The notes below the pieces were generated by a model. The model saw only the letters and a program-made list of their open reading frames with translations. It did no database searches and was not told where the DNA came from. DNA of 64,000 bases from Terebella lapidaria (taxonomy: Eukaryota > Annelida > Polychaeta > Terebellida > Terebellidae). A program made the translations under genes and the position numbers. Position 1 is the first letter of the stretch, and every line of letters begins with the position of its first letter. The stretch spans positions 19,933,809-19,997,808 of the forward strand of contig OX424559.1 of NCBI GenBank assembly GCA_949152475.1. Direction: 5' to 3'. Positions 6,708 through 62,087 of the stretch are shown piece by piece.

Positions 6708-6794
6708 AGACAGATATCAACACAACTGTTGAAATAGATGGAGAGATTTTTAAACTGTCGCTTGTCGGAAATGGAACAGAAATCCCACTACCAG
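6708..6794 (+). CDS. Gene 1, ectodomain exon (first one recognised)
   Basis: The exon follows TTCTCAG and ends before GTGGGT, phase 1 at both ends. It encodes ETDINTTVEIDGEIFKLSL then NGTEIPLPG, with possible N-glycosylation sites (NTT, NGT). The paralogous exon at 58089-58175 gives STINMTVSVGGDIVKLSM and NGTAVSLPG with identical phases. This cross-copy conservation is the main support for calling it coding. Confidence 0.75.
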
Positions 6795-7035: not shown

Positions 7036-7183
7036 ATATGATAATCAGTGGTCGAGTCCTTACCAGCGTCATGGTGGAGGTCAACAGTTCTGCCCCCAAA
7101 CCTCGCAAGATCGGCATCCAGAACCGCGTGGACGGAGCTATTTACAACGATCATTCCTGCGAGCGCAGTTTCAAGTGTGAAAG
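7036..7183 (+). CDS. Gene 1, ectodomain exon with CERS...C motif
   Basis: Acceptor CTCTCCACAG and donor AG|GTGCTT, entering in phase 1 and leaving in phase 2. The peptide contains VNSSAPKPRKIGIQNRVDG and CERSFKCER. The paralogue exon 58767-58914 has the same framework (EGTAPKPQSINI, CERSYWCRR). The two conserved cysteines probably form a disulfide in the extracellular domain. No known domain is recognised. Confidence 0.75.
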
Positions 7184-7446: not shown

Positions 7447-7583
7447 ACAAGTCCAATTCAACCTCGACCCATCCCAGACAGCCGAGCTCATCATCAATGT
7501 CAGCTTCACCGTGCAGAATCTGCCACCGATCATCATCAGCCGAGCTGTCACACGGAGCGTGGCTGGTGTTACGTCGTCTTCAG
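7447..7583 (+). CDS. Gene 1, ectodomain exon with VQNLPPIII motif
   Basis: Acceptor CCTTCCAG and donor CAG|GTGTGT; it enters in phase 2 and leaves in phase 1. It encodes QVQFNLDPSQTAELIINVSF followed by TVQNLPPIIISRAVTRS. The paralogue exon 59191-59300 encodes LVQFDINPSQSAELVITTSF and VQNLPPIIIF. Alternating hydrophobic residues suggest a beta-sandwich, but the fold is not identified. Confidence 0.75.
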
Positions 7584-8166
7584 GTGTGTGTGCTTGCTGG
7601 TAATGAAAATACTAAAATAGAAACACACATTTTTCAAAAGACGAATAACAGTGATGAGTAACATTGTTTCAAAGTTTTTAATGCAATTGGAAAATTACCA
7701 AAGAGCACCTTGAATGAAAATATTGCCTTAAGTTTAACATAATTATAAACCTAACTTAATTGTATGTCTTAAACAAAGTTTGGACACTGTGGCTTTGTGG
7801 TGATCACGCTGGCTGTGCCACTGCATATACGGTACCCCACCGTATATGCAGACATTTGCTTGTGAGCTTTCTGCGGATTGTATTCCTCGTCGAATCTCGA
7901 TACTTTTGTAGCATGGGCACATATTTTTGTAAAACCATACCACCTTTTGATTTTGAATGCCGTAGCAACTAGCAACCACAATGGCCAGTTGCCTACAGTT
8001 TTCATGATGAAATCTGTTTTTAGGTTACCGTCGCGTTGCGTCCGTCATACGGCGTCCGTCTAAAATTTTATCTTTAAAGTTTACAGACGGATTTTCCTGA
8101 AAATTTGCACAAAAATGCCTAAAAATATTTCAAGAGGGGGTTATTTTTAGGTTACCGGACCTGTGG

Positions 8167-8273
8167 TCCGATAACCTATTGGCATGCCGTTGCGTCCGTC
8201 GTCGGCGTCTGTCCACATTCCGATAACCTATTGGCATGCCGTTGCGTCCGTCGTCGGCGTCTGTCCACATTTT
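8167..8273 (+). repeat. 52-bp direct duplication at an element left end
   Basis: The stretch running from CGATAACCTATTGGCATGCC to GTCTGTCCACATT occurs twice head to tail, just inside a family 1 left end. It is probably a slippage or nested-insertion scar. Confidence 0.7.
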
Positions 8274-9604
8274 AGGTTACCGTACCTATGGTCCGATAAC
8301 CTATTGGCATGGCGTTGCGTTCGTCGTCCGTCCGTCCATCCGTCCGTCCATCCATCGGGCGTTAATATTTTTATCTTTAAAGTTTTCGATCGAATCTTTC
8401 TGAAATTTTGCACAAAAATGCCTAAAAATATTTTGAGAAGGATATATATTTTTTTTTTGGATTTTCGCATTTTTTTCAAAATGGCGGCCGTTTTTGTCGA
8501 AAAACGCTCAATTTTGGACTTTGACGGCCATTTTCTCAAAAACTGTCTGATCAGTTTTGAGTTTTTGGTTTCAAAAGATTCCCCTCATATACCTCTGTGA
8601 TATGTATAAGTTTGGTTGCCCTAAATTCTCCGGTTTCCGTGTGGCGGCCATTTTGAATTTTTGGCGGGTCGGCGAAAAAAATTTTTTTCGCCCCAAATCG
8701 CATTACTATCCATTTTGGGCCATTTCTAGGGCAAAAAAAAATTTTCACCCTTTGAAAAAAATTTTGGACTTAGAAAATTTTCAGCACTTTTTTCCTTCAT
8801 AATGGGAGCTGTCCGGACTGTACTCATAGAACGCTTGAAGATAGAGCTTAGAAATTGGCACTTTCAAATGGGAAGTCATATATGGCGACTTGTGTGGTGA
8901 CCTTGAATTTGACCTTGGATGACCTTGAAAGGTCAAAACAGCCATTTTTGGGTCGAAAAACGCTCAAATTTGCACCTGGTCTGTATTTTCTCAAAAACTG
9001 TCTGACCATTTTTGAGATTTTTGCTTAAGAAGATTCCTCTTATATACCTCTGTGACGTGTATAAGTTTTGTTGCCCTTGAATCGCCGATCTCAGTGTGGC
9101 GGCCATTTTGAATTTTTGACGAGTCGGCGAAAAAGAATTTTTTTCGCCCCAAATCGCATTACTATCCATTTTGGGCCATTTCTAGGCAAAAAAAAATTTT
9201 CACCCTTTGAAACAAATTTTGGACTTCGAAAATTTTCGGCACTTTTTTCCTTCAAAATGGGAGCTGTCCGGACTGTACTCATAGAACGCTTGAAGATAGA
9301 GCTTAGAAATTGGCACTTTCAAATGGGAAGTCATATATGGCGACGTGTGTGGTGACCTTGAATTTGACCTTCGATGACCTTGAAAGGTCAAAACAGCCAT
9401 TTTGGGGTCAAAAAATGCCCAGATTTGCCTCTGTAGATGAAATGCTTGCAGATAGAGCTCATTTATCTTTATCATTTTTATCTTTAAAGTTAACGATCAA
9501 ATCTTTCTGAAATTTTGCACAAAAATGCCTAAAAATATTTTGAGAAGGAGGTATTTTTAGGTTACCGGACCTTTGGTCCGTAACCTATTGGCATGGCGAT
9601 GCGT

Positions 9605-11655: not shown

Positions 11656-11999
11656 ATTTTGTCCGGTAACCTGTCTTAGCCCTTGGGCTAATTTTTTTTA
11701 AAAATGGCGGCCGTTTTCGATGAAAAATGCCTGATTTTGGACTTTGGCGGCCATTTTCTCAAAATCTGTTCAGTAACTTTTTTTCTTTTTGATACATAAC
11801 ACTCCTCATATGTACTCCTATGATGTCTATGAATTTCGTTGCGCTTGAATCGCTCGAAGTGGGCCATTTTGGGCCCAAACTCGGCCCAAATTGGACTTTC
11901 CCATGTTAAATTCTCCTATGCTTTATAATGGGACACATTAAAGCCTAATATCTCACTTAATATTGAGATTAGAGACTAGGAATCAATTGTGGACATATA

Positions 12000-13560
12000 G
12001 GAAATGATATATGCTGAATATTCTCGTGACCTTGAATTTGACCTTTGACCTCATTTTCAAGGTCACAGGACAAAATGACTAATATCTCGCTTATTATCGA
12101 CTTTACAGCTTAGGAATCAATTGTGAACATATAGGAAATGATATATGCTGAATATTCTCGTGACCTTGACTTTGACCTTTGACCTCATTTTCAAGGTCAC
12201 ATGACAAAATGGCTAATATCTCGCTTATTATCGACTTTACAGTTTAGGAATCAATTGTGAACATATAGGAAATGATATATGCTGAATATTTTCGTGACCT
12301 TGAATTTGACCTTTGACCTCATTTCCAAGGTCACAGGACAAAATTGCTAATATCTCGCTTATTATCGACTTTACAGCTTAGGAATCAATTGTGAACATAT
12401 AGGAAATGATATATGCTGAATATTCTCGTGACCTTGAATTTGACCTTTGACCTCATTTTCAAGGTCACAGGACAAAATGGCCAATATCTTGCTTATTAGC
12501 GACTTTACAGCTTAGGAATCAATTGTGAACATATAGGGAATGATATATGCTGAAAATTCTCATGACCCTGAATTTGACCTTTGATTTCATTTTCAAGGTC
12601 ACATGATAAAATGGCTAATATCTTGCTTATTATCGACTTTACAGCTTAGGTATCAATTGTGAACATATAGGAAATGATATATGCTGAATATTCTCATGAC
12701 CTTGAATTTGACCTTTGACCTCATTTCCAAGGTCACAGGACAAAATTGCTAATATCTCGCTTATTATCGACTTTACAGCTTAGGAATCAATTGTGAACAT
12801 ATAGGAAATGATATATGCTGAATATCCTCATGACCTTGAATTTGACCTTTGACCTCATTTCCAAGGTCACAGGACAAAATTGCCAATATCTCGCTTATTA
12901 TCGACTTTACAGCTAAGGAATCAATTGTGAACATATAGGAAATGATATATGCTGAATATTCTCGTGACCTTGAATTTGACCTTTGACCTCATTTTCAAGG
13001 TCACAGGACTAAATGGCGAATATCTTGCTTGTTAGCGACTTTACAGCTTAGGAATCAATTGTGAACATATTGGAAATGATATATGCTGAATATTCTAGTG
13101 ACCTTGAATTTGACTTTTGACCTCATTTTCAAGGTCAACAGGACAAAATGGCTAACATCTTGCTTATTATCGACTTTACAGCTTAGGAATCAATTGTGAA
13201 CATATAGGAAATGATATATGCTGAATATTCTAGTGACCTTGAATTTGACTTTTGACCTCATTTTCAAGGTCAACAGGACAAAATGGCTAATATCTTGCTT
13301 ATTATCGACTTTACAGCTTAGGAATCAATTGTGAACATATAGGAAATGATATATTCTGAATATTTTAATGATATTGAATTTGACCTTTGACCTAAATTTC
13401 AAGTTCAGTCATTTTATTTTCAAAGTCAGATTACAAAATGGCTTATATCTCGCTTATTATCAAATTTACATCTTAGGGGTCCATAGTGAACATATAGGAA
13501 ATGATGTATGCTGAATAGTTTGGTGATCTAGAATTTAACCTTTGATCCCATTTTCACGGT
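12000..13560 (+). repeat. 134-bp satellite array (about 12 units)
   Basis: Same unit as at 10390, highly homogeneous in the middle of the array. It follows conserved element sequence with GTGGGCCATTTTGGGCCC and ends at a family 1 right end at 13662. Confidence 0.9.
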
Positions 13561-14519
13561 TAGAGATATGGCGATTTCAGTGGTCACCTTGAATTTGACC
13601 TTCAACTTTCTCGGCTTAACTCTGTATATTTCTCCGGTAACCTTTCTAGCCCATTGGGCTAATTTTTTTATTGATGCATAACACTCCTCATATGTATCCC
13701 TGTGACATGTATAAATTTCGTTGCGCTTGAATTGCTCGAAGTGGGCCATTTTGGACCCAAACTCGGCCCAAATGGGACTTTCCCATGTTAAATTCTCCTA
13801 TGCTTTATAATGGGACACATTAAAGCCTAATATCTCACTTAATATTGAGATTAGAGACTAGGAATCAATTGTGGACATATAGGAAATGATATATGCTGAA
13901 TATTGTCATGACCTTGAATTTGACCTCTGACCTTGGTTTCAAGGCCAGAGCGGCCGTTTTCGTCGAAAAATGGCCAATTTTGGTCTTCGACGGTCGTTTT
14001 CTCAAAATCTGTTCAGTAACTTTTTTTAGGTTACCGGACCTATGGTCCGATAACCTATTGGCATGGCGTTGCGTCCGTCGTCCGTCCGTCCGTCCGTCCG
14101 TCCGTCGTCCGTTCACATTTTTATCTTTAAAGTATATGATCGAATCTTTCTGAAATTTTGCACAAAAATACCTAAAAATATTTCAAGGAAAGGGTTTTTT
14201 TTGTTTTTCGATTTTCGCATTTTTTTCAAAATGGCGGCCGTTTTCGACGAAAAATGCCTGATTTTGGACTTTGGCGGCCATTTCCTCAAAAACTGTTCAG
14301 TAACTTTTTTTCTTTTTGATACACAACACTCCTCATATGTACTCCTGTGATGTGTATAAGTTTCGTTGCGCTTGAATCGCTCGAAGTGGGCCATTTTGGG
14401 CCAAACTTGGCCCAAATGGGACTTTCCCATGTTAAATTTTCCTATGCTTTATAATGGGACACATTATGCCTTATATCTCACTTAATATTGAGATTAGAGA
14501 CTAGGAATCAATTGTGGAC

Positions 14520-15720
14520 ATATAGGAAATGATATATGCTGAATATTCTCGTGACCTTGAGTTTGACCTCTGACCTCAGTTTCAAGGTCAAAGAACAAAG
14601 TGGCTAATATCTCGCTTATTATCGACTTTACAGCTTAGAAATCAATTGTGGACATATAAGAAATGATATATACCGAATATTCTGATGACCTTGAATTTGA
14701 CCTTTGACCTCATTTTCAAGGTCACAGGACAAAATGGCTAATATCTCATTTCTTATCGACTTTACAGCTTAGGAATCAATTATGAACATATAGGAAATGA
14801 TATATGCAGATTATTGTCATGACCTTGAATTTGACCTTCGACCTCATTTTTAAGGTCACGGGACAAAATGGCTAATATCTCACTTATTACCGATTTTACA
14901 GCTTAGTGATCAATTGTGGACATGTAGGAAATGATATATGCTGAATATTCACGTGACCTTGAATTTGACCTTTGACCTCATTTTCAAGGTCACGGGACAA
15001 AATGGCTAATATCTCGCTTATTATCGACTTTACAGCTTAGGAATCAAATATGGACATACAGGAAAGGATATACGCTGAATATTCTGATGACCTCAAATTT
15101 GACCTTTGACCTTATTTTCAAGGTCATAGCACAAAATTGCTAATATCTCGCTTATTATCGACTTTACGGCTTAGGAATCAATTGTGAACATATAGGAAAT
15201 GATATATGCTGAATATTCTCGTGACCTTGAATTTGACCTTTGACCTCATTTCCAAGGTCACAGGACAAAATTGCTAATATCTTGCTTATTATCGACTTTA
15301 CGGCTTAGGAATCAATTGTGAACATATAGGAAATGATATATGCTGAATATTCTCGTGACCTTGAATTGACCTTTGACCTCATTTTCAAGGTCACAGGACA
15401 AAATGGCCAATATCTTGCTCATTAGCGACTTTGCAGCTTGGGAATCAATTGTGAACATATAGGAAATGATATATGCTGAATATTCTAGTGACCTTGAATT
15501 TGACCCTTGACCTAAATTTCAAGGTTAGTCATTTTATTTTCAAGGTCAGAATACAAAATGGCTTATATCTCGCTTATTATCAAATTTACAGCTTAGGGGT
15601 CCATAGTGAACATATAGGAAATGATGTATGCTGAATATTTTGGTGATCTAGAATTTGACTTTTGATCCCATTTTCAAGGTCAGAGAACAAAATGGCTAAT
15701 ATGTCGCTTATTATCATCTT
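14520..15720 (+). repeat. 134-bp satellite array (about 9 units)
   Basis: Same 134-bp unit. The last units are more divergent and run into a unique stretch at about 15720. Confidence 0.9.
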
Positions 15721-15721
15721 T

Positions 15722-16228
15722 ACATCTGCCCCTGATGACGCCAGTGTGTCTTTGGATAAACTATTTGGTCGGGTTCTAATGCAAAATGTTGTATTTTACC
15801 TTTCTTATTGGCATCATCAAAATTTGATTGTATTGGTGGTAATAGATTGATACTTACATTTGTACCACTGAGTTGGTGTCACTGCTGGCAGACGTTAAAT
15901 CTGTCCCCGAGGATACCATCAACTCAGTAGCCTTCGGGCTTGTGATTGGGTACTTTTGTACTTGTCATGTATCTATTCCATGGGGTTAGATTCGGATTTC
16001 TAAATTATTTTCATAGGTTGTTGGGCAGTTGTATACTAATTCCATCTGGTGTACAGTAGAAACAACTACATTTAACACATTGTCTGCCCCTGAAGACGCC
16101 AGTGTGTCTTTGGATAAACTATTTGGTCGGGCTTTGTTTGTTTCTATTGCAAAATGTAATATTTTACGTTTCTTATTGGCATCATCAAAATCTGATTGTA
16201 TTGGTGGTAATACATTTATACTTACATT
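15722..16228 (+). repeat. Diverged direct duplication of a 140-150 bp segment
   Basis: Segments 15725-15865 and 16081-16228 both begin TCTGCCCCTGA and continue GACGCCAGTGTGTCTTTGG, then share TATTGGCATCATCAAAA. They are two diverged copies separated by about 215 bp of non-repetitive sequence, lodged between satellite units. Confidence 0.8.
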
Positions 16229-16739
16229 TACAGCATAGGAATCAATTGCGAATATAGAGGAATGATATATACTGAATATTTTCATAACCTTGAACTTGAA
16301 CTTTGACCTCATTTTCAAGGTCACATCACAGAATGGCTAATGTCTCACTTATTATCGACTTTACAGCTGAGGAATTTATCGTGGACATACTAGAAGTGAT
16401 ATATTTGTTGAAAATTTCATGACCTTGAATTTATCAGTGACTTTATTTTCAAGGTCACTGGACAAAAGGCTAATATCTAAAATGTATATTGTCCGGTAAC
16501 CTTTCTTAGCCCTTGGGCTAATTTTTCTTATTGATGAAAAACACTCCTCATATGTACCCCTGTGACATGTATAAATTTCGTTGCGCTTGAATCGCTTGAA
16601 GTGGGCCATTTTGGGCCCAAACTCGGCCCAAATGTGACTTTCCCATGTTAAATTTTCCTATGCTTTATAATGGCACACATTAAGCCTAATATCTCACTTA
16701 ATATTGAAGTTAGAGACCAGGAATGAATTGTGGACATAT

Positions 16740-18340
16740 AGGAAATGATATATGCTGAATATTCTCGTGACCTTGAATTTGACTTTTGACCTCATTTTCA
16801 AGGTCACAGGACAAAATGGCTAATATCTCGCTTATTGTCGACTTTACAGCTTAGGAATCAATTGTGAATATATAGGAAATGATATATGCTGAATATTCTT
16901 GTGACCTTGAATTTGACCTTTGACCTCATTTTCAAGGTCACATGACAAAATGGCTAATATCTCGCTTATTATCGACTTTACAGTTTAGGAATCAATTGTG
17001 AACATATAGGAAATGATATATGCTGAATATTTTCATGACCTTGAATTTGACCTTTGACCTCATTTCCAAGGTCACAGGACAAAATTGCTAATATCTCGCT
17101 TATTATCGACTTTACAGCTTAGGAATCAATTGTGAACATATAGGAAATGATATATGCTGAATTTTCTTGTGGCCTTGAATTTGAGCTTTGACCTCATTTT
17201 CAAGGTCACAGGACAAAATGGCCAATATCTTGCTTATTAGCGACTTTACAGCTTAGGAATCAATTGTGGACATATAGGAAATGATATATGCTGAATATTC
17301 TGATGACCTTGAATTTGACCTTCGAACTCATTTCCAAGGTCACAGGACAAAATGGCTAATATCTCGCTTATTATCGACTTTACAGCTTAGGAATCAGTTG
17401 TGAACATATAGGAAATGATATATGCTGAATATTCTTGTGACCTTGAATTTGACCTTTGACCTCATTTTCAAGGTCACATGACAAAATGGCTAATATCTCG
17501 CTTATTATCGAATTTACAGTTTAGGAATCAATTGTGAACATATAGGAAATGATATATGCTGAATATTCTAGTGACCTTGAATTTGACTTTTGACCTCATT
17601 TTCAAGGTCAACAGGACAAAATGGCTAATATCTCGCTTATTAGCGACTTTACAGCTTAGGAATCACTTGTGAACATACAGGAAATGATATATGCTGAAAA
17701 TGCTCGTGACCTTGAATTTGACCTTTGGCCTATTTTCAAGGTCACAGGACAAAATGGCCAATATCTTGCTTATTAGCGACTTTACAGCTTAGGAATCAAT
17801 TGTGAACATATAGGAAATGATATATGCTGAAAATGCTCGTGACCTTGAATTTGACCTTTGACCTATTTTCAAGGTCACAGGACAAAATGGCCAATATCTT
17901 GCTTATTAGCGACTTTACAGCTTAGGAATCGATTGTGAACATATAGGAAATGATATATGCTGAAAATTCTCGTGACCTTGAATTTGACCTCATTTTCAAG
18001 GTCACAGGACAAAATGGCCAATATCTTGCTTATCAGCGACTTAACAGCTTAGAAATCAATTGTGAACATATAGGAAATGATATATGCTGAAAATTCTCAT
18101 GACCTTGAATTTGACCTTTGACCTCATTTTGAAGGTCACATGACAAAATGGCTAAGATCTCGCTTATTATCGACTTTACAGCTTAGGAATCAATTGTGAA
18201 CATATAGGAAATGATATACGCAGAATATTCTCATGACCTTGAATTTGACCTTTGACCTCATTTCCAAGGTCACAGGACAAAATTGCTGATATCTCGCTTA
18301 TTATCGACTTTACAGCTTAGGAATCAATTGTGAACATATG
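16740..18340 (+). repeat. 134-bp satellite array (about 12 units)
   Basis: Same unit as the other arrays. Units at 17690-17990 have a small deletion in the TTTGACCTCATTTTC part. A short fragment of the same satellite also lies at 16240-16480, before the right end at 16521. Confidence 0.9.
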
Positions 18341-18586
18341 GGAAATGAGGGACATTTCCCATATGATGTATGCTGAATAGTTTGGTGATCTAGAATTTAA
18401 CCTTTGATCCCATTTTCACGGTGAGAGATATGGCGATTTCAGTGGTCACCTTGAATTTGACTTTCAACTTTCTCGGCTTAACTTTGTATATTTCTCCGGT
18501 AACCTTACTAGCCCATTGGGCTAATTTTTTTAGGTTACCGGACCTATGGTCCGATAACCTATTGGCATGGCGTTGCGTCCGTCGTC

Positions 18587-25793: not shown

Positions 25794-25984
25794 TTCCATC
25801 GGATACACTGACTCCTGATGTGAGCGCTGCATCAACAGCCGTGGGAGAGGAGCTATACACCAGGAGAAGTGCTGGAAAGATTGGTCTGGCGGCTGGTGTT
25901 TGTCTGGGATTGATTGTGATTGCAGCTATTCTGGTCTTAGTACTGTATCTGAGAAGAAAGAGACAGGCAAAGCCGGGAAGTTCG
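25794..25984 (+). CDS. Gene 1, transmembrane exon
   Basis: It follows TATGTTACAG (phase 1) and ends TCG|GTATGT in phase 0. The encoded peptide has a Ser/Thr-rich stalk, then a hydrophobic helix (IGLAAGVCLGLIVIAAILVL) and a basic stop-transfer RRKRQ. The paralogous exon 59408-59595 keeps the stalk pattern, a helix of similar length and KRKRR. This gives a type I topology with the Schlafen part in the cytosol, assuming a signal peptide upstream. Confidence 0.8.
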
Positions 25985-26521
25985 GTATGTACAGAAATTC
26001 ATTGTCCACTTGGGTCCCACTTGGGTCCCATATTCTTGTACGCGCATAAATAGTGTTGCGATCATGACACTAATCAGTTCTGCCAGGAGTGACCAAACTG
26101 GCGGACTGTCGGACTGTCAAATCTTTTGCTGAAATAAGCTTATCATGCTTATTGAAGATAATGGCGTGTAATATTCCATAGATTTCAATTTTGTGATAAT
26201 GCACATACTTAATTGTACACTTTCTGCAAGACAACATACAGAACCTGCTGACATTCTAAGATTGAATGCGTGGCATATTATGTCAGTAACGTAAAAACAG
26301 TAAAATAATGAATATTTTTTCAGGAGATTTCTAGAGTGAATTTTCATAATAGCCTTTAAACAAATTTTGAAATGCTCGTTCAATTATACTTTTGAAAAAC
26401 ATTTTAACTAACATTCATTCAATATTTAATTATTGATTAAAGATATTGAATGGCGATTTTACTGAATGGGAGTGTTGTCGATCACCTGTCATAACCTATA
26501 TTTTTCTGGTATTTTGTCCAG

Positions 26522-29373
26522 CTTACTTTTTCGCTAGAAACCCTTGAAGTTGGGTTAAAAGACTACAGTGATCTGACCGATGTCACTGCAGCGGACCTCA
26601 ATAAATACGCAATCAAGGATAATCTTCCAGTGGCTGAGTACATGTTCGAGTTCAGCTATGGTGATATCACTTCCTCAGCCAGGACGAAGAACGAGTATGT
26701 GGCTTGTCTAACAGCTATGATGAACACAAGCGGTGGAATAATTGAAGTTACCAGTAACAGAGGCATTGATGTGAACTCTCTTAAATCTGTCACGTCACCA
26801 ACCATAACAAGACAGCAGCTAAAGGATAGCAGAGTCACTTTCATAGAGCCTGATCTTGCATATGTCATGGTCAATAAATCAAGATACCCAGTGACCTTTG
26901 ACTGTGCAACATTTACAACTCATCAGGGCAGAGTGGAACCTGTCAGAGACCATGAGACTGCTAAACAAATTGTATCTCTTCGAAGACATAATGTGTCTGG
27001 TAATAGCGCAGAGTCAGACATTAATGTTAGTTTTCATTTCGGTATCACAGATAGAACTCAGTTCACTTGTGATGACTCTAAACCACAACATTTTCTTGCC
27101 TTGATGATAGCACTTGCTAACACACCTAGGGGTGGATACATAACATTAACGGGAAAAGTGGGAAATATACCAAACCTGGATCGTGTCATCAATCATGTTA
27201 AGGACACTATAAAGTTGGGTTGTGGTGACGTCTCTTCAAACAAACTGATCTGGGGTCCAAACAGAGGCCTTCCAAAATACAACAAACACTGGACTGTACT
27301 GAAAAATCCAGATGAATCTTCTGCTGGAAAGACAGGGGATCCCTCTTGGTTGATAAGAGTGGAGGAATGTCCAGGTGGGGCCTTTTTGAGGTGTCCTGCT
27401 TGTTTCGTCGTTGGTGATGATGGAGACATTCACACACTTGATTTTGAGGCTTGGAAAAGTATGTTGACGGAATCTGCTGCTGAAGAAGCCATCCTGTCCA
27501 AAATTGGAGATGAACTGGCAGAAGACGAGCCAGACTGTGCCATTCATGTACCTGAACACTTGTCTCCTATGACAGAAGAGATTGAAGATTCTTTTGGTGT
27601 TTTGGCATCAGACCATGGTGCGCAACAGACCTACTCTTGGTCGTACTCTGATGTGTGGAAGAGGGAGATGTATACACAAAGAAAACAATATCCTGCCAAT
27701 TGGAAGGCAGACATTGATTTCAAAATGTTCCAACTGAGCAACCCGAAGACATGCACTCCGAGAAAAGAAGTCATCTATGACATAGTCAAGAGAAGAAGTC
27801 CTGACTTGGCGGAAATCTTCTGTGAGATTTTCCAGAAATTAGATTATGCCTGGGTGATTGCGTTCTCCAGTATAACAAAGGCTTTCAAACATGGGAGTAA
27901 GATTAGAGTTCCAAACACCTTAGTGATGGATCTGCTGATGGCATCTGAAAAGGAAGGTTTACAGCTGTGTTCTGTGTACACTCATAGCTTAGATGCCAAG
28001 TGCAAGCAGTATAGTCTGAAGGCCGCTATCCTCTTGAAGAAATATGCAACCAGGCAATTGTTCATGGTAGAGAAGACCCGACATAAGGTGAAGAAGCAGA
28101 TACATGTCAAAGTTGTTGCGATATCTGACATGGGTTTTTCAGAACTGGAAGACCCAAACCTATCGTATCGTCTACAGGAGTACTTCACATGGCGTGCTGG
28201 GAAGGACACGAGCATCAATCAAACCTTAGCACAGCTGTTCTCAACTGGAGACACCTATGTGAAGAACTCACTTTTCGGCGACTTGATGCTGCACAGGTTG
28301 ACAGAAGGGCAAGAACAAGTTCTGCTCGAGCTAAGTCGTGTGCCTCACGTTTTCGTTCAAGGCCCACCTGGAACTGGCAAGACTTGGATCGCTCGGAACT
28401 TCTGTGCAGCAATGTCTCAGAAGTCAGACAAAAAAAGTGTTGTCTATGTCTGTTCATCACAAGCTGCCTGTGAGCGAATGCGATCTGAAGATACTTGTGA
28501 AATCCACTGGGCTAAAGACTTCAAGACACTTACACTTCTAGCAGATAAGTCCAAGGCTTGGGAGTGTGTTGTACTGGATGATGCTCACACAATCTCAAAC
28601 TATTCACTCTCTCAGTGGGGGGATTTCTTGAAGAGGATCAACACGAAGCAACTGGTCATATTCTTCGACAACGTCCTGGAGCATGCTAAGAGTTCCACAA
28701 ACGTCCTCACTGCATTCGTTGACTACTGTGCGAACAGTCGTTTCACATTCAAGATCATAAACATGGAAGAGTCTCACCGGACCTGCGGGAAAGTAGCTTC
28801 TTTCCTGAAGCATATCTGGAATGACCAGAGGCACGCTAGCTTGCTGCAGGAAGAAGATAGTTGGATGAGAATCGATGGTGATGATGTGTTTTTGCACATC
28901 CTTCCTACGACATTCGAAAGATGTAGAAGTAATGCAATCGAGCTGGCAAACTATGTTGTTGACTTGGCAGACAGGATCATTGTGGAAAGTCAGTCACTTG
29001 ATGGTCCCTACATACACGGCCCTGAAGATGTTGCCATAGTTATTGACACAACTAAAATTGGTGAATTATTCGGCTCGAATGATGTTCAGCGATTGATTGA
29101 TGAATTTGAGAGCAAACATCCCGAGTACAGGGTGCAGAAGGCTGATATTTCGCCAGTGCAGGGAATAATTGTAGACACTCTGAAGAATTTCACTGGACTG
29201 GAGACCAAAGTTCTCATCTATGTCATCCACCATGGCATGAGTCACGATACACTGGACTATCTGTCAGACAAGCGGCATCTGACCCATGTGGTATCTAGAG
29301 CCCTCTGTCGTGTGGATTTCGTCTACCAGGGACCATATGGCCGTGAAGCTGTAGAAAAGCTTGGATTTAGCAG
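26522..29373 (+). CDS. Gene 1, Schlafen-like exon (core plus SF1 helicase-like module)
   Basis: The exon starts after TTTTGTCCAG in phase 0, exactly compatible with the transmembrane exon. It opens with a juxtamembrane segment containing DYSDLTDV, then EYMFEFSYGD. Counting from the internal Met at 26630, residues 24-40 (ACLTAMMNTSGGIIEV) and about 155-175 (ALANTPRGGYITL) resemble the two lobes of the Schlafen/AlbA core. Walker A GPPGTGKT is at about residue 578, Walker B-like CVVLDDAH at about 646, a DTLKNFTGLETKVLIYV segment like motif V at about 845, and HVVSRA like motif VI at about 886. Schlafens of the long class join these same parts. The frame also stays open to a stop at 29431, but CAG|GTATGA at 29373 is a strong donor in phase 2 that fits the next exon. 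The paralogue is broken in this region. Confidence 0.8.
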
Positions 29374-29431
29374 GTATGAAGTCAAGTCCGTATTCAAGCC
29401 AAAAGAATGTTCACATGAATTACTTGTGTAA
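29374..29431 (+). CDS. Alternative C-terminus of gene 1 by intron retention
   Basis: If the donor at 29373/29374 is not used, the Schlafen frame continues for 18 codons (ending CSHELLV) to a TAA at 29429-29431. An AATAAA at 29637-29642 could end such a short transcript. This would give a protein without the tyrosine-motif tail. Whether this form is made cannot be decided from sequence alone. Confidence 0.4.
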
Positions 29432-29491
29432 ATGTGAATAGCAATGAGTATACAAGAAAATGACCAAGCATATATTTATGTCCACACTTTG

Positions 29492-29563
29492 ACCTCTATA
29501 ATAAACACTTCGGGTAATCTTACTTGGCCAAGTAAGATTACCCAAAGTGTTTATTATAGAGGT
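29492..29563. repeat. 72-bp near-perfect palindrome
   Basis: Two 36-base arms, from ACCTCTATAATAAACACTT to TTACTTGG and its reverse complement, meet with no spacer and differ at one position. It lies in the last-but-one intron of gene 1 (or in the 3' UTR of the short form). Sequence just after it (GAGGTAAGTGTGTAATAAATA and beyond) resembles the inverted-repeat element at 63872-63932, suggesting a fold-back MITE fragment. Confidence 0.9.
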
Positions 29564-29636
29564 AAGTGTGTAATAAATACTGGTTTTAATAACTTAAAAC
29601 TTCCTATTTCTTTTAACATGTACATGCACCTCACCA

Positions 29637-29642
29637 AATAAA
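29637..29642 (+). promoter_or_regulatory. Possible polyadenylation signal AATAAA
   Basis: AATAAA sits 206 bases after the read-through stop of the Schlafen exon and just before the acceptor of the tail exon. It could serve a short isoform. I see no clear AATAAA within 500 bases after the full-length stop at 30059. Confidence 0.35.
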
Positions 29643-29665
29643 ATATGTTCTTATTTTGACAACAG

Positions 29666-29782
29666 ATCACCCCCTGTTTCAACTGAAGACAACCCAGATG
29701 GATACCGTGAGGATAATGTCCCATCTTCTGCTCTTGAGGTGCACCAGGAGGACTCTGCTGTGACGTCACCCTTACTGGCCAC
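29666..29782 (+). CDS. Gene 1, cytoplasmic tail exon A
   Basis: Acceptor TTTTGACAACAG and donor AC|GTGAGT, phase 2 at both ends. Only one of three frames is open. It encodes SPPVSTEDNPDGYREDN followed by PSSALEVHQEDSAVTSP, an acidic, Ser/Pro-rich and probably disordered segment with one tyrosine. The entry phase matches the donor at 29373 only, which supports joining to the Schlafen exon. Confidence 0.6.
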
Positions 29783-29923
29783 GTGAGTTTGTTTATGCTG
29801 TTATTGACGATAGTTTATTTCAAGTGAGCATTGTTGCTGTGTATAAGTAGTCCATATCTGTGGGCAAAATTCAAACTCAGAAACATCATATTAGATACAT
29901 ATATATATATCTTCATTTTACAG

Positions 29924-30059
29924 ACCTGACGTCGATGGATCGTCCCCTGCCTACATAAAGTTAGACACGCTTCCCCGCCCGGAGGTGTACCCGTCAGGAC
30001 GTCCTCGTACAACAAACTATGACAACGTGGTCGCCAAGCGCAAAACCTCATACCTTTGA
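29924..30059 (+). CDS. Gene 1, terminal exon with tyrosine motifs (ITSM-like)
   Basis: It follows TTCATTTTACAG and stays open in phase 2 to TGA at 30057-30059. The peptide contains SPAYIKLDTLPRPEVYPSG and TTNYDNVVAKRKTSYL. TNYDNV fits the ITSM pattern (T-x-Y-x-x-V/I) that binds SH2 adaptors in SLAM-family receptors, and YIKL is a Y-x-x-L motif. I infer phosphotyrosine signalling or docking. Such short motifs can arise by chance, so this needs support from the paralogue or other species. 30060-30629 has no gene. Confidence 0.6.
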
Positions 30060-33190: not shown

Positions 33191-34729
33191 ATATCTGCAC
33201 ACGTTAAATAAAGTAAAAAATACTTACTTTAGCGGATGATGCATTTGGCGGTAGGGAACGAACTGCTAATTTAAAATTTGCGCCAAATTAAATACTAAGA
33301 AAATATGTGAAGAAATAAATGTTGTTCTGAATCCCCCAGATCGAAACTACACCAAATAATGTGGGAATAGCAATTGCCAAATTAATTAGCTGCGATATTA
33401 TAATGGCTCGATAAAGCTGCTATCCTCTAAAGAGTGCCTCCGTTGAATAAGCGCCTCTCCAAAGAGCGCCTGTATTGCACAAAAGAAATATTGTTTATGT
33501 CACGACGGCATGCATCAAATGCACTTTGCTTAGCTTTAATTCATTATGGTAATTTACTTGGAAACAGTACAATGAATACTGGTAACAATTTACAGTAGTA
33601 CTAACTGTCAAGTGCAAGTGAAATTTCAAATTTACAGTCGGTAACGCATAGGCCTTCCCTATTGGACATATTCAATTTCTGTGCAATAAAAACTTTATGT
33701 AACATGAATAACATGCATTGCGGCTAGGCCTACTGGCTATCAGTGTGAGTTATACCGGGGCAGTAAATATGAGATATGATTCGATTATGCCAAATTTTGG
33801 TGACATTTTTTTCCCAAGTATCATATTCTGCACCTTAAAGTGATATTGGCAGAGAGTTACGGATTTGGTCATACCTTTATGATCGAACGAAGAAAGCATA
33901 ACATACATCTGCACGTGTAAGCCCAAACAGACGCCCCTTTCTAATTGATTTCACGGCTAGTTTCTGATGGAGATAGTTTGAGTGTGTTTACATTACCCCC
34001 ACTCTCGGTGCTTTGTATCCCTTGATGCAATGCGATTCCAGCTTACTCGTATATGTCTGAGCCAATCGAGCGTGAACTAGGTTAAGTCATAGGTAACTCT
34101 GAGTGGCGCACAAAACAAAAGAAAAGCTGCTGCTAGTACTGTCATATGCTTGATTTATCGATCTGATCAAGTATAGTTTGTTTTGTGACCCATATTTCTG
34201 AGACCATAGGCATAGTAATTGATTTGGGAAAAATAGTTTTTCTGCCAATATCACTTAAATACTACTCCCCCACTTAATGAGTGCCATTTAATTCATCTTT
34301 CACCTTTTTAATCCTTATTGAATATAGAAGAAAGCGCAGGATATGATACTTGGGCCACATTTTTCTGGCACTCGAGAGCACAGTTTCGTATTTATCACTT
34401 GAAAATATCTTACCGGACCAAGCTTCATTCGGCCGAAGGTCGTGCGTTGCAATAAATTCTCTTAATTGGCTATCTACTGATTAGCTTGAAATTGAATGTG
34501 GTATGCTAATTGCTTTTAATACCGATTAAAGGCCTGGATATTTGCGTTTACCGGCAACATATGATCGTAGTTTCAACCTTGGAAAGTATGTTGTCAAGTA
34601 AGCGACTCTCTTGAATATGCACCTGTCTTGAAAGAGCACCAGGGGAAAAAAAGTTATTGACAAATAAGTGCCCCGGTGCTTAATTGAACCGATACCCTAT
34701 TAGTATCTTACAGTATTTCACTTTGTTTA

Positions 34730-35083
34730 TGTAGTAATTTTAGCGACTGTAACTCCCGTGCACCTAACCTTCGGCCCCGCGCATTCGAGTGAAGTGAATG
34801 GTCGCACTAGAAGGTTATCGGCCATAATCGTATAAGTTTGGATATATATTCAATAAGAACTGTGATATAAGGATATTATTATACACGAAGGACTATAAGC
34901 TGTGATTATATACTGACTGGGAATATCACCGACGTAGGTGTGAGCGGCCCTGATTGTGAGTGATTGTCGACATCGGACGTTCATCATCACAATAAACAGT
35001 TGAATTAAACTGCCAGCTTGTTGTATTGCACAACGTAATAGACAATTGGCCTGATACGGGCCAGAAGAACCGTATTCATCACA
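34730..35083 (+). repeat. 5' LTR, copy 1 (354 bp)
   Basis: Begins TGTAGTAATTTTAGCGACTG and ends CGTATTCATCACA. Its last 280 bases match the 3' LTR at 50693-50973 with about 3% differences by eye. It contains GGATATATATTC, a TATA-like run. Confidence 0.85.
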
Positions 35084-35084
35084 T

Positions 35085-35102
35085 TGGCGCCGTAGCCCAG
35101 GG
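35085..35102 (+). other. Primer-binding site, copy 1
   Basis: TGGCGCCGTAGCCCAGGG follows the LTR end after one base. It begins TGG as expected for pairing with a tRNA 3' CCA. The tRNA species is not identified. Confidence 0.6.
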
Positions 35103-35559
35103 TCTGAGCTAGTCTCGGATCTTCGACCCAGACCTGACCGGCATTGATGGCATTGGCCCCGGGAGCTTCCCGCGGTGAGCCACTCGACCCCACGGATGAT
35201 GAAATGACAATCAATCCGAATCCGACCTTCCGGCCCTCGCTCAGTTATCATGAGCGATACGGTTCCGCTGTCGCAGGAGCAACAACCGACCAGCCTGTTC
35301 GACTCCTTCGGTGACCATTCGACCCTGAGATCGTCTTCGCCGCCCGTCGACCTGGTGCAGGAGTTTCTCGACGAAGACCCGCTTGCGCCTCTGCACACAG
35401 TAAGTGACATTCTGAGTGCACACGCTAGGGCGTATTCGGCCACGTCGGCTAGAACGACCCAGAGTACGTTCGACCCAGCCAGGCGAGAGCGACAACAGAG
35501 AGCGACAACTTAATTGAACCGATACCCTATTAGTATCTTACAGTATTTCACTTTGTTTA

Positions 35560-35913
35560 TGTAGTAATTTTAGCGACTGTAACTCCCGTGCACCTAACCT
35601 TCGGCCCCGCGCATTCGAGTGAAGTGAATGGTCGCACTAGAAGGTTATCGGCCATAATCGTATAAGTTTGGATATATATTCAATAAGAACTGTGATATAA
35701 GGATATTATTATACACGAAGGACTATAAGCTGTGATTATATACTGACTGGGAATATCACCGACGTAGGTGTGAGCGGCCCTGATTGTGAGTGATTGTCGA
35801 CATCGGACGTTCATCATCACAATAAACAGTTGAATTAAACTGCCAGCTTGTTGTATTGCACAACGTAATAGACAATTGGCCTGATACGGGCCAGAAGAAC
35901 CGTATTCATCACA
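35560..35913 (+). repeat. 5' LTR, copy 2 (354 bp)
   Basis: Same sequence as the LTR at 34730, produced by the 830-bp duplication. Its primer-binding site follows at 35915. This copy is the one continuous with the intact element body. Confidence 0.85.
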
Positions 35914-36079
35914 TTGGCGCCGTAGCCCAGGGTCTGAGCTAGTCTCGGATCTTCGACCCAGACCTGACCGGCATTGATGGCATTGGCCCCGGGAGCTTCC
36001 CGCGGTGAGCCACTCGACCCCACGGATGATGAAATGACAATCAATCCGAATCCGACCTTCCGGCCCTCGCTCAGTTATC

Positions 36080-38345
36080 ATGAGCGATACGGTTCCGCTG
36101 TCGCAGGAGCAACAACCGACCAGCCTGTTTGACTCCTTCGGTGACCATTCGACCCTGAGATCGTCTTCGCCGCCCGTCGACCTGGTGCAGGAGTTTCTCG
36201 ACGAAGACCCGCTTGCGCCTCTGCACACAGTAAGTGACATTCTGAATGCACACGCTAGGGCGTATTCGGCCACGTCGGCTAGAACGACCCAGAGACTATC
36301 GAACTCTGCCGACAGAAATCGTATCGACCCAGAAAATTCAATGTTAAACGTTCGGCCAGTAACCATAGATACATCGATGGTTACACACCCACCGAGTAAC
36401 TCCCGGGTACGACAGTGGGTTTGTCAGTCTGACAATGTTCCGGAACTGATCCCGCCGAGTGCTTATTCGGCAAACCGACCTCTGGCACCGTCAATGACGC
36501 CGAGACAACACGACCCCGCACCAGACATGTACTCGCGCATACCGACCGAGCCGACGGTGGTAGAGTACGTTCGACCCAGCCAGGCGAGAGCGACAACAGA
36601 GAGCATCCCGGCGACGACCGCTGCCCGGATCGCGACACCTCCACGACCGCAGCGGCCCAGCGACATGACGGCAGAATCTCGCGCCACCACACGGCAAGCG
36701 CGACTTCGACAAGCACCGTCGACGTCAGGTCGCCGAACCCGCGACCCCGACATGCCGACTTCCGACACACGCGCTCCCGCGCCGACCATGCACCGAACGC
36801 CGCCGACTACCGGAGAACAACCGCGCTTCGATCCGTCGCAAGAACAGGTTGTGTCTGCCCCGGCAGAAAGTGTTGTGCCGATGATCGGACATCCGATCTC
36901 CCAACCAGTTGGAAACACCAATGGATACGGTGTACCGCCAGTCGGATACCCTGGCGCAACAAGCGGTGTCCCAAATGGAGTAGCTGTTGGATACTATCAA
37001 CCACATATCGGCTATATGAACCCACCACCCGGATATGGTGGCGTTCCAAGTGTGATAGCTGACACCGGCTATCATGGTGCACAAACTGGATTAGTGTACC
37101 ATGGTGTGGGCCCAGACGGATCGACATACCGATATCCACCACCGGCTGTAATCCCACCCTCAGTCGGGATACCATGGGTGACGCCACAATACAGCCAGTC
37201 GGCCCCTGTCACGCAAGCACTACACGACCCCAGTCATGCGATGGCACCACCCGCCGCATCGCTCGCCGTCTGCGCGATGACAGCACCAACCGTCCCCGCT
37301 AACGCGACCCCGGTCGGCCCAGATACAACGGCTCCGGCGACTTCGGCTGTTACGACTCCGACGGCCACTGCAGCGACTGCATCAGTTGCGGTGAGTGTTA
37401 ACACGCCCACGCCACAGAGACTCACGTCTGAGCCCCAAATGTTGGCTACGGCTAAAACGGCTCAATGGCGTGCGACTTTCAAGGAGGGCAACCTCACTCA
37501 GTACATCCGGAGCTTTGAACAGTTCACGGCGGCCTTCACATATACCGACCTCAATAAAACGACCACATTCCGGAGCACGCTACGCGGTCGCGCTGAAGCG
37601 TTGGCTCTAAACATCCCAGTCGAGACTCCCTGGGAGGAGTTCCGTCGCCGACTTTTGGAGGGCTGGGAGCCTGTGCCTCGTCGACAGTCCAAACGGGACG
37701 ATTTCCCGTTCCTCAAACGGGAATGAAAGGAGGACGCGGAGCATTACCTGGAGCGACTCCAAGCCCTGGCTGAACAGGTGTTTGACGACGTCACGCCAGA
37801 GTCGCGACAGCGAACTGTAATCTCGCAATTCGTTAACGGCCAACCCGACCCCATTGCAGACAAACTGTGTGTCTTCACCTTCAATAGCTATGGTGAAGCA
37901 TTAACGGCCGTCCTCAAGGCTGAGAGTCGCCAGCAGAGGACAACCAGAGATCGACACTGGGGCACGCGACATGCCGACATCTCCGCGAGCGGATATGCGA
38001 GGACGACCCTGTTAACGAAGAACAGTCTTGTGCTATGGGACAGGTCACTCAGTGGGAGACACCAACCCCTGAGCAAATTGCGACCTACTACGACCCTGCT
38101 GACAGTGATACGACTGGCCTGCAGGGAGGCGATGAACACTCTGTGCCAGCCTGCTCACGCGAGTGGGTGGCTGAAGCGTTTCAGTGCGTCCTTAGTGACG
38201 AGAACGGACTATGCGAAGAAGCGGCCATCTACTCTGTCTTGTGAACCATGGCCCCGACTAAAGGTGATCGACCCCCACAACCCGGACGGCCCATAGTATG
38301 CTTCTTTTGTAAGAAGCCCGGTCATCGCTGGATGTGATGTTTTCG
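36080..38345 (+). pseudogene. gag: gag (Ty3/Gypsy), interrupted
   Basis: The main frame runs 36080-37726 (548 codons) and resumes in the same frame after a TGA (37724-37726) through 37778-37970. It then shifts frame (38035-38244) and reaches a zinc knuckle. The N-terminal third is Ser/Pro/Arg-rich. Residues about 275-375 are Gly/Tyr/Pro-rich with repeats like GYGVPPVGYPG. A capsid-like helical segment follows (TQYIRSFEQFTAAFTYTD, then ALALNIPVETPWEEFRRRLL). Gag packages element RNA. Three in-frame TGA codons (37724, about 38242, about 38335) sit where an arginine CGA would fit, so this copy cannot make a full protein without read-through. Confidence 0.8.
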
Positions 38346-58088: not shown

Positions 58089-58175
58089 CATCAACTATCA
58101 ACATGACCGTGTCAGTCGGTGGGGATATAGTCAAGTTGTCAATGCGTGAAAATGGAACCGCCGTCTCACTGCCCG
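58089..58175 (+). CDS. Gene 2, ectodomain exon
   Basis: Acceptor TTGTATTCTAG, donor CCCG|GTGGGT, phase 1 at both ends. It encodes STINMTVSVGGDIVKLSM and NGTAVSLP. It is the counterpart of 6708-6794 in gene 1, with the same length and phases. Confidence 0.75.
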
Positions 58176-58766: not shown

Positions 58767-58914
58767 TCATGCTGATAACAGCTCCTATGACCACGAACAT
58801 CACAGTTAATATTGAAGGTACAGCTCCAAAGCCCCAAAGCATCAATATTGATAATTATGTGGACAAAATGATCCGTCATACATTGCAATGTGAGCGCAGT
58901 TACTGGTGCAGAAG
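58767..58914 (+). CDS. Gene 2, ectodomain exon with CERS...C motif
   Basis: Acceptor GTGATGACAG, donor AG|GTGAGC, phases 1 and 2, length 148 as in gene 1. It encodes TTNITVNIEGTAPKPQSINI and CERSYWCRR. Cysteines are conserved with gene 1. Confidence 0.75.
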
Positions 58915-59190: not shown

Positions 59191-59300
59191 GCTTGTCCAG
59201 TTTGACATCAATCCATCTCAGTCAGCTGAGCTCGTAATCACAACCAGCTTCATCGTGCAGAATCTGCCACCGATCATCATCTTCCAAGATGTCAAGATGA
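59191..59300 (+). CDS. Gene 2, ectodomain exon with VQNLPPIII motif
   Basis: Acceptor GATTGCCAG and donor ATGA|GTATGT, phases 2 and 1. It encodes LVQFDINPSQSAELVITTSF and VQNLPPIIIF. The C-terminal part is shorter than the gene 1 exon by nine codons. Confidence 0.75.
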
Positions 59301-59407: not shown

Positions 59408-59595
59408 TTTCGTCAGAGACACTTACAACTGATATCAACACTGTATCAACATTAGTGAATGAGGAGTTTTACAACATGGTGGGTACCATGGAGATCGTAC
59501 TGACTGTTGGATTGGCTCTCACAATAAGCGTGATTGCTTTAGCAGTTACTGTTCTGTGTGTTAAAAGGAAAAGAAGGCTAAACCCGGGGATTCAG
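59408..59595 (+). CDS. Gene 2, transmembrane exon
   Basis: It follows TTTGCACAG and ends CAG|GTATGT in phase 0. It encodes a Thr-rich stalk, a hydrophobic helix (VLTVGLALTISVIALAVTVL) and basic KRKRR. It matches gene 1 exon 25794-25984 in layout. Confidence 0.75.
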
Positions 59596-60029: not shown

Positions 60030-60790
60030 CTTTTGATAGAGTAGAAATGGCTGAGTACGGAGGCATGTATGAGAACCCACTGAGTGGCATCACTGCACCG
60101 GACCTCAAGAAATACGCAGTCCAGGATGGTCTTCCGGTGGCTGAATACATGTTCGAGTTCAGCTATGATGATATCACTTCCTCGGCGAGGACAAGGAACG
60201 AGTATGTGGCTTGTCTCACAGCTTTGATGAACACCAGCGGCGGAGTGATTAAATTACAAGTGATAGAGGCATTGACAGGAACACACTGACTTCCATCCCG
60301 TCACCAATTATACCACAACAGCAGTTCAAACATGTGAAAGTAATTCACATGGAGCCTAATCTCTTCTACATCCTGTGACGTTTTCCTATGCAACATACAC
60401 AGCTCGAAATAGCTCAGTGGAACCTGTAATGACATACCATGACATGAAACGAATATTAAACAATGCAAAAGGATATAACTCGGACGATGAGACTGACACT
60501 CAGTCCAGTATTCCGGAAAACATTTGCATGACATCTGATGGATCGATCCCTCGAAGATTTCTTGCTATGCTGATAGCGTTAGTTAACACACCAAGGGGCG
60601 GATATATCACGCTAAAAGGGAGAATTGGAAGTATACCAAACATGCAGGATCTGATCAAATGTATTGAGGACAGCATAGAGACTGGCTGTGGTGGGTCAAT
60701 CAGGGAAAGGATATTGGGTTCCACCAGAGTTTTATGGCAATACAATAAACAGTGGACAGTGCTTAAAAATCGAGAAAATATTGCTGGTAA
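60030..60790 (+). pseudogene. Gene 2, decayed Schlafen-like exon
   Basis: It starts after TTTCTTCAG and shows a juxtamembrane segment with YGGMYENPLSGIT, then the conserved VAEYMFEFSYDDITSSARTR and NTSGGVI. Compared with gene 1 it is one base short near its start (77 versus 78 bases to the shared GACCTC), which breaks the phase with the transmembrane exon. It loses another base at about 60255, stopping at 60289, and has a further deletion near 60385. The reopened frame (60375-60821) carries the second lobe (NTPRGGYITLKGRIG) before running into a repeat at 60794. No helicase-like part remains. Confidence 0.75.
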
Positions 60791-60793
60791 TGT

Positions 60794-60840
60794 CAGGGGC
60801 GGATCCAGGATTTTTCAATAGGGGGGGGGGGGGGGGGTGC
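60794..60840 (+). mobile_element. hAT-like terminus and G tract interrupting gene 2
   Basis: CAGGGGCGGATCCAGGATTT is the same kind of end as the MITE at 51375. It is followed by ATAG and a run of about 18 G. The other end is not found, so the element's extent is unknown. 60841-62078 contains another long G run at 61322 and no gene. Confidence 0.55.
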
Positions 60841-62087
60841 TTTTCTTAGATGTACTAATCCCGACTGCACATGTCGTACTTTAGTCACACTTTAAGAAAA
60901 GTTCAACTCAAGTCACACTTTGCTATTGCACACCTCTCACTTTATGTCGAAGTGACACTTTAAAAGCCCTCAAAGTTAATGAAATGTTAGTGATGCATGA
61001 GCCTCCCTAAAGCCGCACTTAGCGCAGTATGTCATGTATAATGTACGTATTTTTGAAGTTATTTGTACAACTATAGCATTGGGGGTTCTCAGATGTATAT
61101 AATAATAATAGATATATGTATGACGATATAGATAAAACCGATATTTCAGATTTTTTTTTTCAATTTTGCCATTCTTGTATAATGATTACAGATTGCAAAA
61201 TCGTAGGACAAACTATGAAGATGTCGAAGACAGCATGGGGATTGCTATCTTCAAGCACGGATCTCTCACTAATGATGACAAATGAAACAAAAACTACATT
61301 CTCGTGATATGTATGTTGCGTGGGCGGGGGGGGGGGGGGGGGGAATGCACCGAATATTGAGTTATATATTATTCCAAATCCATAGGATTAACTTCAAAAC
61401 GCGTGGTCATGGGCTGTACATTTGTACAGAATAATTGTGATGACAACAATCTATATCTTGTTTTATATTTCCACATCTAACGTGATATTATTTCGCAAGA
61501 CGTACCAATATACAAAGATGGGCGCAGGACACATCCAATTAAAACATATTGTATCTGTGACATCTGTTATGATTTAACAGTTATTATGAATAATAATAAA
61601 TAATTTCATATATCCACTCGCTTGAGGTGACCATAAGTTGACACAAACTTCGTGATATCTATAAAACGGATATTATATAATTCTATGAACATTCCATGGA
61701 ATCAGATAATATTATGGGAATTGATGCCATGGGGTTACGTTCTGAATTTACTTGGGTTTTAATCCATGCCATTTTTTCCCGTGTGATGCTCTCATCAATA
61801 TTTCTTGCTTTTAGTAGCATGTTCATAGATCTAGCTATGAATTATCGATAGCAGATTTCCTTGTTCATATGTTGTAGAAGTTGAAAATGCAAGTCCTTGT
61901 GACATGAGTATTGTGTTCTGCAGTTCGCGAATGCTCAAGCAATTCCTCGTTAGATACACTCCGCTGCACACTAACCAAAGTGAGGACCTAAGTTGAACAT
62001 GTGCAATCCAAGCTACGTATAGGATAATGCCCTAGGCTGAGTATTTCTCACGAATAGAGACCGAGGCCGCCTGTTGAACCCACAAAT

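Follow-up and report, generated by a model that had tools for sequence, protein, structure and literature searches.

Does this stretch of an annelid genome encode a Schlafen that is built into a membrane protein, and if so, of what kind? We addressed this in a window of 64,000 nt from Terebella lapidaria (OX424559.1, 19933809-19997808; contig C5 here), in which a transmembrane (TM) exon lies upstream of a long Schlafen exon, and searched the animal's own 762 Mb genome for further copies. Gene models were built from the genomic DNA of this one species, with exons, phases, and splice sites read from the sequence. We conclude that these exons probably belong to one gene family encoding a type I membrane protein, with an immunoglobulin (Ig)-like domain, a stalk of ~120 residues from exons E1-E3, a TM helix, a cytosolic group III-type Schlafen, and mostly an 83-residue tail with TxYxxV, a candidate receptor at the cell surface for innate or stress responses. 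The predicted joining of ectodomain, TM helix, and Schlafen is well supported, since many copies retain the exons, their phases, and their splice sites.

Gene model of the first window copy

The window holds two copies. The exons of copy 1 (locus L001) are as follows.

6708..6794, forward strand: ectodomain exon E1, phase 1 to 1; conserved with copy 2 (58089-58175), L036, and L037; phases equal in both window copies
7036..7183, forward strand: ectodomain exon E2, phase 1 to 2; encodes CERSFKCER; conserved with copy 2, L035, L036, L037, and L040
7447..7583, forward strand: ectodomain exon E3, phase 2 to 1; conserved with copy 2, L035-L038, and L040
25794..25984, forward strand: TM exon, phase 1 to 0; acceptor TTACAG, donor GTATGT; basic juxtamembrane LRRKRQAK
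26522..29373, forward strand: Schlafen exon, phase 0 to 2; putative, diverged Schlafen core, linker, and SF1 helicase/ATPase-like C-domain
29374..29431, forward strand: reading frame stays open beyond the donor up to a stop
29666..29782, forward strand: tail exon A, phase 2 to 2
29924..30059, forward strand: tail exon B, phase 2 to stop; TNYDNV motif

The TM, Schlafen, tail A, and tail B exons are collinear and their phases are compatible. An initial annotation of this DNA had described a TM exon ending in phase 0, a Schlafen exon beginning in phase 0, and a phase-2 donor at 29373 suited to a phase-2 tail exon; the coordinates and phases are as it described them, and the exon at 29666-29782 does start in phase 2. 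The order TM-Schlafen-tail that it proposed is real, but it overlooked exons E1-E3, 18 kb upstream, as well as the Ig-like exon and the degraded copy 2. The Schlafen exon starts at 26522 behind the phase-0 acceptor TTTTGTCCAG, and the phase-2 donor after 29373 reads GCAG/GTATGA (the slash marks the splice junction). The exon either continues for 969 open codons to the stop at 29431 or ends at that donor, and the segment 29374..29431 is most likely the start of the intron or the end of a tail-less isoform. In the Schlafen frame of copy 1, the first ATG appears at residue 41, inside a conserved block, whereas relatives with an ATG of their own start before the core, which favors the fused reading. 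The TM exon encodes AGKIGLAAGVCLGLIVIAAILVLVLYLRRKRQAK, a hydrophobic stretch followed by basic residues. As basic residues flanking a TM helix mark its cytosolic side (the positive-inside rule), the Schlafen side would be cytosolic.

The exon order recurs across the genome

Searching the genome with the Schlafen exon gave at least 52 matches among the best candidates. Ten loci are near full length (L001-L010): copy 1 and nine others at 56-83% identity, including L006, which contains a stop. Behind these come fragments and 19 distant loci. With the TM exon, 11 matches were obtained at E 0.01, and for every one a Schlafen exon follows downstream in the same orientation (11/11). The two exons are at most 3.4 kb apart in nine of these (copy 1, L002, L004, L005, L006, L007, L008, L010, and window copy 2), while the TM exons of L003 and L009 lie ~20 and ~45 kb upstream and are paired with their Schlafen exons by position alone. 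Counted from the Schlafen side, an upstream TM exon is present for all ten near-full copies, within 3.4 kb in eight. L035 has an additional, stop-bearing TM exon before a broken Schlafen copy, and in L004 taken together with L037 the Ig-like exon, E1-E3, TM, Schlafen, and both tail exons all fall inside ~7 kb, although tail A is 1 nt short there. Because the TM-Schlafen order recurs in copy 2 and in further copies of the genome, it is more than a chance arrangement.

Contig C5 carries L001, L004, L006, L008, and L010, and C16 carries L009. Another contig, C59 (444 kb), could in part be a second haplotype of C5; when it is discounted, the five near-full copies on C5 and the one on C16 still stand. 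Locus L006 has a TM-Schlafen intron 99.6% like that of L002, but its Schlafen exon is 96.7% like L005 and 89.2% like L002, which points to gene conversion or unequal exchange.

Splice sites, frame, and selection

Counts of selection and tail frame cover L001-L009; L010 was set aside as being of the copy 2 type, with GA/GTATGT at the place of the donor and no tail A found at the locus. Across the nine, the Schlafen acceptor CAG/C (phase 0), the Schlafen donor GCAG/GT (phase 2), and the tail A acceptor are each kept in 9/9. The Schlafen exon is a multiple of three in length in all nine and free of stops in eight, and the region 3′ of its donor varies among copies by non-triplet indels. We then compared nonsynonymous (dN) and synonymous (dS) divergence with NG86, leaving identical pairs and pairs with dS 0 out of the pair counts. 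The Schlafen exon is under purifying selection (nine copies: dN 0.149, dS 0.370, dN/dS 0.40; dN<dS in 36/36 pairs). Small samples of the ectodomain exons gave dN<dS in 3/3 pairs for the Ig-like exon, 3/3 for E2, and 6/6 for E3.

A predicted group III-type Schlafen

The initial annotation had called the long exon a Schlafen with a helicase-like module, and this call held up. Against Pfam, the copy 1 exon matched SLFN-g3_helicase at 32.3 bits (E 8.2e-8), above the cut-off of 24; the cut-offs of nSTAND3 (1.9e-7), AAA_19, and further P-loop models were passed as well, so a P-loop by itself lacks specificity. For profile searches we used alignment A1, with 14 rows: nine of TM type (L006 was dropped for its stop), the distant loci L042 and L043, and three relatives with their own ATG (L044-L046). 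Its best solved structures were SLFN5 (E 1.9e-22), SLFN11 (1.3e-18), and SLFN14, and the matches span the linker, the Walker motifs, and a later FSGLE-type helicase motif. The SLFN11 match lay mostly in the C-domain; SLFN5 aligned over both core and C-domain, its cores scoring E 2.4e-5 to 4.7e-5. In alignment A2, limited to ten rows (the nine TM-type rows and L042, excluding L043 and the own-ATG relatives), SLFN11 still came first (1.4e-4), and the core appeared only as negative-scoring stretches. These profile comparisons place the predicted Schlafen part with the group III-type Schlafens, as a diverged member. AlphaFold applied to the Schlafen exon alone returned an unusable model (mean pLDDT 33.9). 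Protein-database searches, including one with the 14-row alignment, recovered no Schlafen and are uninformative, since the database probably lacks animal Schlafens; one of them scored only the 7999 candidates sharing most words.

The motifs suggest a module that has kept its ATPase features and altered its nuclease site. Walker A (G-x4-GK[ST]) is canonical in seven of the nine TM-type rows, the exceptions being L008 and L010. The column of the first RNase glutamate holds Ser in seven rows, Ala in one, and a gap in one, with no acid, and that of the second holds Asp in six, Ser in two, and Gly in one, never Glu, the alignment being loose at both columns. Since these glutamates are replaced, direct RNA cleavage by the receptor would be unlikely. 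All three own-ATG rows retain both as E-x4-E. They also carry a GGxIxIG box, in place of which all nine TM-type rows have GG[YC]I-type variants. AlbA_2 (PF04326, the SLFN box) was absent for the window protein at E 0.01 and matched 3 of the 14 A1 rows. The SWADL motif, searched for as S-W-[AS]-[VGL]-D-[LIV], occurred in 0/14 A1 rows; as the own-ATG rows lack it too, it does not discriminate here.

The tail and its tyrosine motif

A tail with a motif resembling the immunoreceptor tyrosine-based switch motif (ITSM) had been claimed for this gene. The copy 1 tail does end in ...RTTNYDNVVAKRKTSYL, which matches TxYxxV, and in six of nine copies (L001, L002, L003, L005, L006, and L007) the Schlafen donor leads in frame through both tail exons to a shared 84-residue end with TxYxxV; the claim does not extend to L004, L008, and L009. 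Tail A measures 117 nt in seven of the nine, 116 in L004, and 111 in L009. TxYxx[VI] is encoded in 7/8 copies having tail B, and a TNYxxV-type motif is encoded in the copy 2 tail exon as well. The intron between Schlafen exon and tail is 293 nt long in L001 and L002 and 128-165 nt in the other seven copies. Within it, window positions 29484-29571 form a palindrome that contains AATAAA and whose two 44-nt arms are 91% complementary.

The best-surviving alternative accepts the joined TM and Schlafen exons and has the main protein end at the 29429-29431 stop, leaving the tail as a minor isoform or unused. An in-frame stop does follow shortly behind the donor, AATAAA lies in the intron before tail A in 6/9 copies, and the tail frame is lost in 3/9. 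We nevertheless regard this as unlikely, as the other six keep the tail in frame, and none of the nine has lost the phase-2 donor or the tail A acceptor, while the sequence directly behind the donor changes by indels that are not triplets. The tail exons also show dN<dS, in 29/35 pairs for tail A (nine copies: dN 0.195, dS 0.336) and 26/27 for tail B (eight copies: dN 0.205, dS 0.454), figures that take in the frame-shifted L004 and L008 tails, mostly read in the homologous frame.

The ectodomain and its membrane

The ectodomain, at first proposed to be small, is larger in the gene model, comprising an Ig-like exon and ~120 residues of E1-E3. The Ig-like exon lies ~1 kb before the window (L041, 8656-9012) and occurs also in L036 and L037. 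Joined, E1-E3 of copy 1 matched no Pfam family at E 1. Between E3 and the TM exon, the 18-kb intron contains large repeat arrays (11700-18530) with offsets of ~134 nt and 90-93% identity.

The TM helix might instead sit in an inner membrane, such as that of the endoplasmic reticulum or endosome. Its Ig-like part would face the lumen, and the protein would then be an organelle-anchored Schlafen and not a surface receptor. Sequence cannot separate the plasma membrane from other secretory membranes, and a search for a signal-peptide exon did not find one. An Ig-like ectodomain and a tyrosine-type tail are, however, usual for surface receptors. The assembled ectodomain also has 7 N-glycosylation sequons in 262 residues, against 8 in the 950 of the Schlafen exon, though this would fit any secretory membrane. 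We therefore give the organelle-anchored form a low probability, slightly below that of the tail-less protein, and retain the surface receptor.

Evidence against a single receptor family, and the weaker alternatives

Several observations weigh against the proposed receptor family or lessen its support. Three tails end early: that of L004 because tail A is 1 nt short and the frame is lost, that of L008 through a frameshift in tail B that removes the tyrosine, and that of L009 at a stop three codons into the nearest tail B-like acceptor. One TxYxx[VI] arises in 4.2% of shuffled tails of equal make-up, and because the copies are related, its conservation does not amount to many independent events. 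The Schlafen exon of L006 contains a stop. In the TM exon, synonymous excess is small (six copies: dN 0.169, dS 0.209; dN<dS in 8/14 pairs), which is weak evidence since a helix tolerates change. Introns are 82-99.6% alike between copies when compared ungapped, about as alike as the exons; some of the conservation is thus owed to recent duplication or conversion. On the Schlafen side, nSTAND3 matches 10/14 A1 rows and SLFN-g3_helicase 8/14, with a near-equal nSTAND3 score on the window protein. On the ectodomain side, the best Pfam model for the Ig-like exon of L036 is V-set at E 0.0024 and 18.5 bits, under the cut-off of 26, the match of L041 is weaker, and the failure to find a signal-peptide exon counts here too.

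Two separate genes could also produce the observed order, one for an Ig-like receptor that has a tail of its own, the other for a Schlafen lying within an intron of the first and expressed from a separate mRNA. In favor of this reading, the Schlafen part is a single large exon, as a retrocopy would be. Yet if the Schlafen exon is skipped, the TM exon runs into a stop after 6 residues when spliced directly to tail A (8/8 copies) and after 1 residue when spliced to tail B (7/7). With no ATG before the conserved block of copy 1, the flanking splice sites kept in 9/9, and no genomic TM exon found at E 0.01 that lacks a downstream Schlafen, we consider two genes very improbable. An array of decaying pseudogenes that yields no working product is equally improbable: stops, frameshifts, and truncations do occur in copy 2, L004 and L009 (tail), L006, L008, and many fragments, but the Schlafen exon is open in 8/9 copies at dN/dS ~0.40, and 5/9 (L001, L002, L003, L005, and L007) combine an open Schlafen exon with an in-frame tail.

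Relatives and known systems

More distant Schlafen-like loci in the same genome number 19, at 23-31% identity (on C2, C5, C6, C14, C16, C17, and C273), and 17 of them have a frame of >950 aa, one of the 17 with stops inside the match. Five of the 19 were inspected (L042-L046). L044, L045, and L046 share the Schlafen architecture at 21-22% identity, and differ in having their own ATG upstream of the core, the GGxIxIG box, and both glutamates. The upstream flanks examined showed no TM-like exon. In the tree of A1, these three stand apart from the other 11 rows (100/100; midpoint root, long branches, and an unsettled bootstrap). At L042 (rc 6070-8524; 28-31% identical), a TM-like stretch lies just upstream of the distant Schlafen, and the DNA offers a possible phase-0 intron (donor GAG/GTGAAA, acceptor also in phase 0) and, where the 29373 donor would lie, a phase-2 GTGAGT. 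We did not count it as a further TM-Schlafen member, as its TM donor is weak and went unlisted in a looser scan that demanded a G at donor +5, and ectodomain and tail were not found. Judging from L042, the fusion may predate the array.

Ig-superfamily receptors with tails bearing an ITSM or the related immunoreceptor tyrosine-based inhibitory motif (ITIM) include the SLAM and PD-1 types. The predicted protein resembles these in its Ig-like ectodomain, single TM helix, and TxYxxV near the C-terminus; it differs in the 950-residue Schlafen between TM helix and motif, and in an Ig-like domain without the canonical cysteine pair and below the Pfam cut-off.

With group III Schlafens (SLFN5, SLFN11, SLFN13, and SLFN14), the family shares the linker and SF1 helicase-like C-domain and, by the A1 profile, a putative core, in equal order, and differs by its replaced RNase glutamates, altered SLFN box, and TM exon before the core. 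The known ones are described as cytoplasmic or nuclear, with an EED ribonuclease triad, and the text available to us of that source mentions no TM segment or ectodomain (PMC9256597). Another source, available in part, gives the SWADL consensus and reports Schlafen-like genes only from mammals, Xenopus, and one fish (PMC8875196). In mussel, Schlafen proteins are named among up-regulated genes in the portion available (PMC7772429), so molluscan Schlafens are known by annotation. Bacterial Schlafen domains, according to the accessible part of one paper, are likewise joined to other domains linked to conflict and defense, but these are HEPN-domain fusions and not membrane receptors (PMC3710099). 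A search of the open-licence literature listed no paper on a transmembrane Schlafen.

The degraded second copy and other features of the window

Comparison of the window halves located copy 2.

58089..58175, forward strand: copy 2 E1
58767..58914, forward strand: copy 2 E2
59191..59300, forward strand: copy 2 E3
59408..59595, forward strand: copy 2 TM exon, phase 1 to 0; donor GTATGT
60030..60800, forward strand: copy 2 Schlafen remnant in three different frames, breaking off near 60800
61192..61285, forward strand: copy 2 tail exon, phase 2; LQNRRTNYEDV...DDK, then stop

Outside repeats, the parts conserved between the halves, among the matches listed, are E1, E2, E3, TM, and an initial portion of the Schlafen exon. 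The phases from E1 to TM are identical in both copies, which differ over these 177 codons by dN 0.46 and dS 1.11. Positions 59408-61285 repeat the TM-Schlafen-tail order in diverged form. The Ig-like exon had no counterpart at copy 2 among the matches listed, though its relative L036 has one.

Elsewhere in the window, two tandem 786-nt repeats (34679-36294) are 99.7% identical, with a further 282-nt match at 50694-50975 (96%). The long GC-rich open reading frames between these repeats and the 50694 match resemble the gag-pol of an LTR retroelement.

A possible mechanism and what it would mean

From the domain types, we infer a chain of events for such a receptor, which would serve the innate or stress response at the cell surface. 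Once ligand is bound or receptors cluster, the Schlafen modules would meet at the membrane, where the ATPase module might act as a switch or oligomerizer on nucleic-acid- or ribosome-linked partners. With its catalytic glutamates replaced, the Schlafen module would probably not work as an RNase. Phosphorylation of the tail tyrosine could then recruit SH2-domain proteins. More tentatively, and with rather less than even confidence, we propose a new animal immune receptor class that carries a probably RNase-dead, ATPase-competent Schlafen as its own cytosolic effector: a clustered birth-and-death family, switched by ligand clustering and a phosphotyrosine tail, and serving as a membrane-tethered nucleic-acid or translation switch.

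Schlafens are presented, in the parts of two sources available, as vertebrate (in one review as nearly only mammalian) and soluble, acting on tRNA, ribosomes, or DNA (PMC8875196, PMC9256597). If transcripts confirm the joined gene, this would be a new kind of receptor, containing a Schlafen, a protein type so far described as loose inside cells. A multi-copy animal family would then let a surface signal control a Schlafen directly, a kind of regulation new to the family, and would hint at a role for the Schlafen ATPase where the RNase site is changed. It would also raise a testable question, whether animal Schlafens act in immune signaling, beyond RNA cleavage alone.

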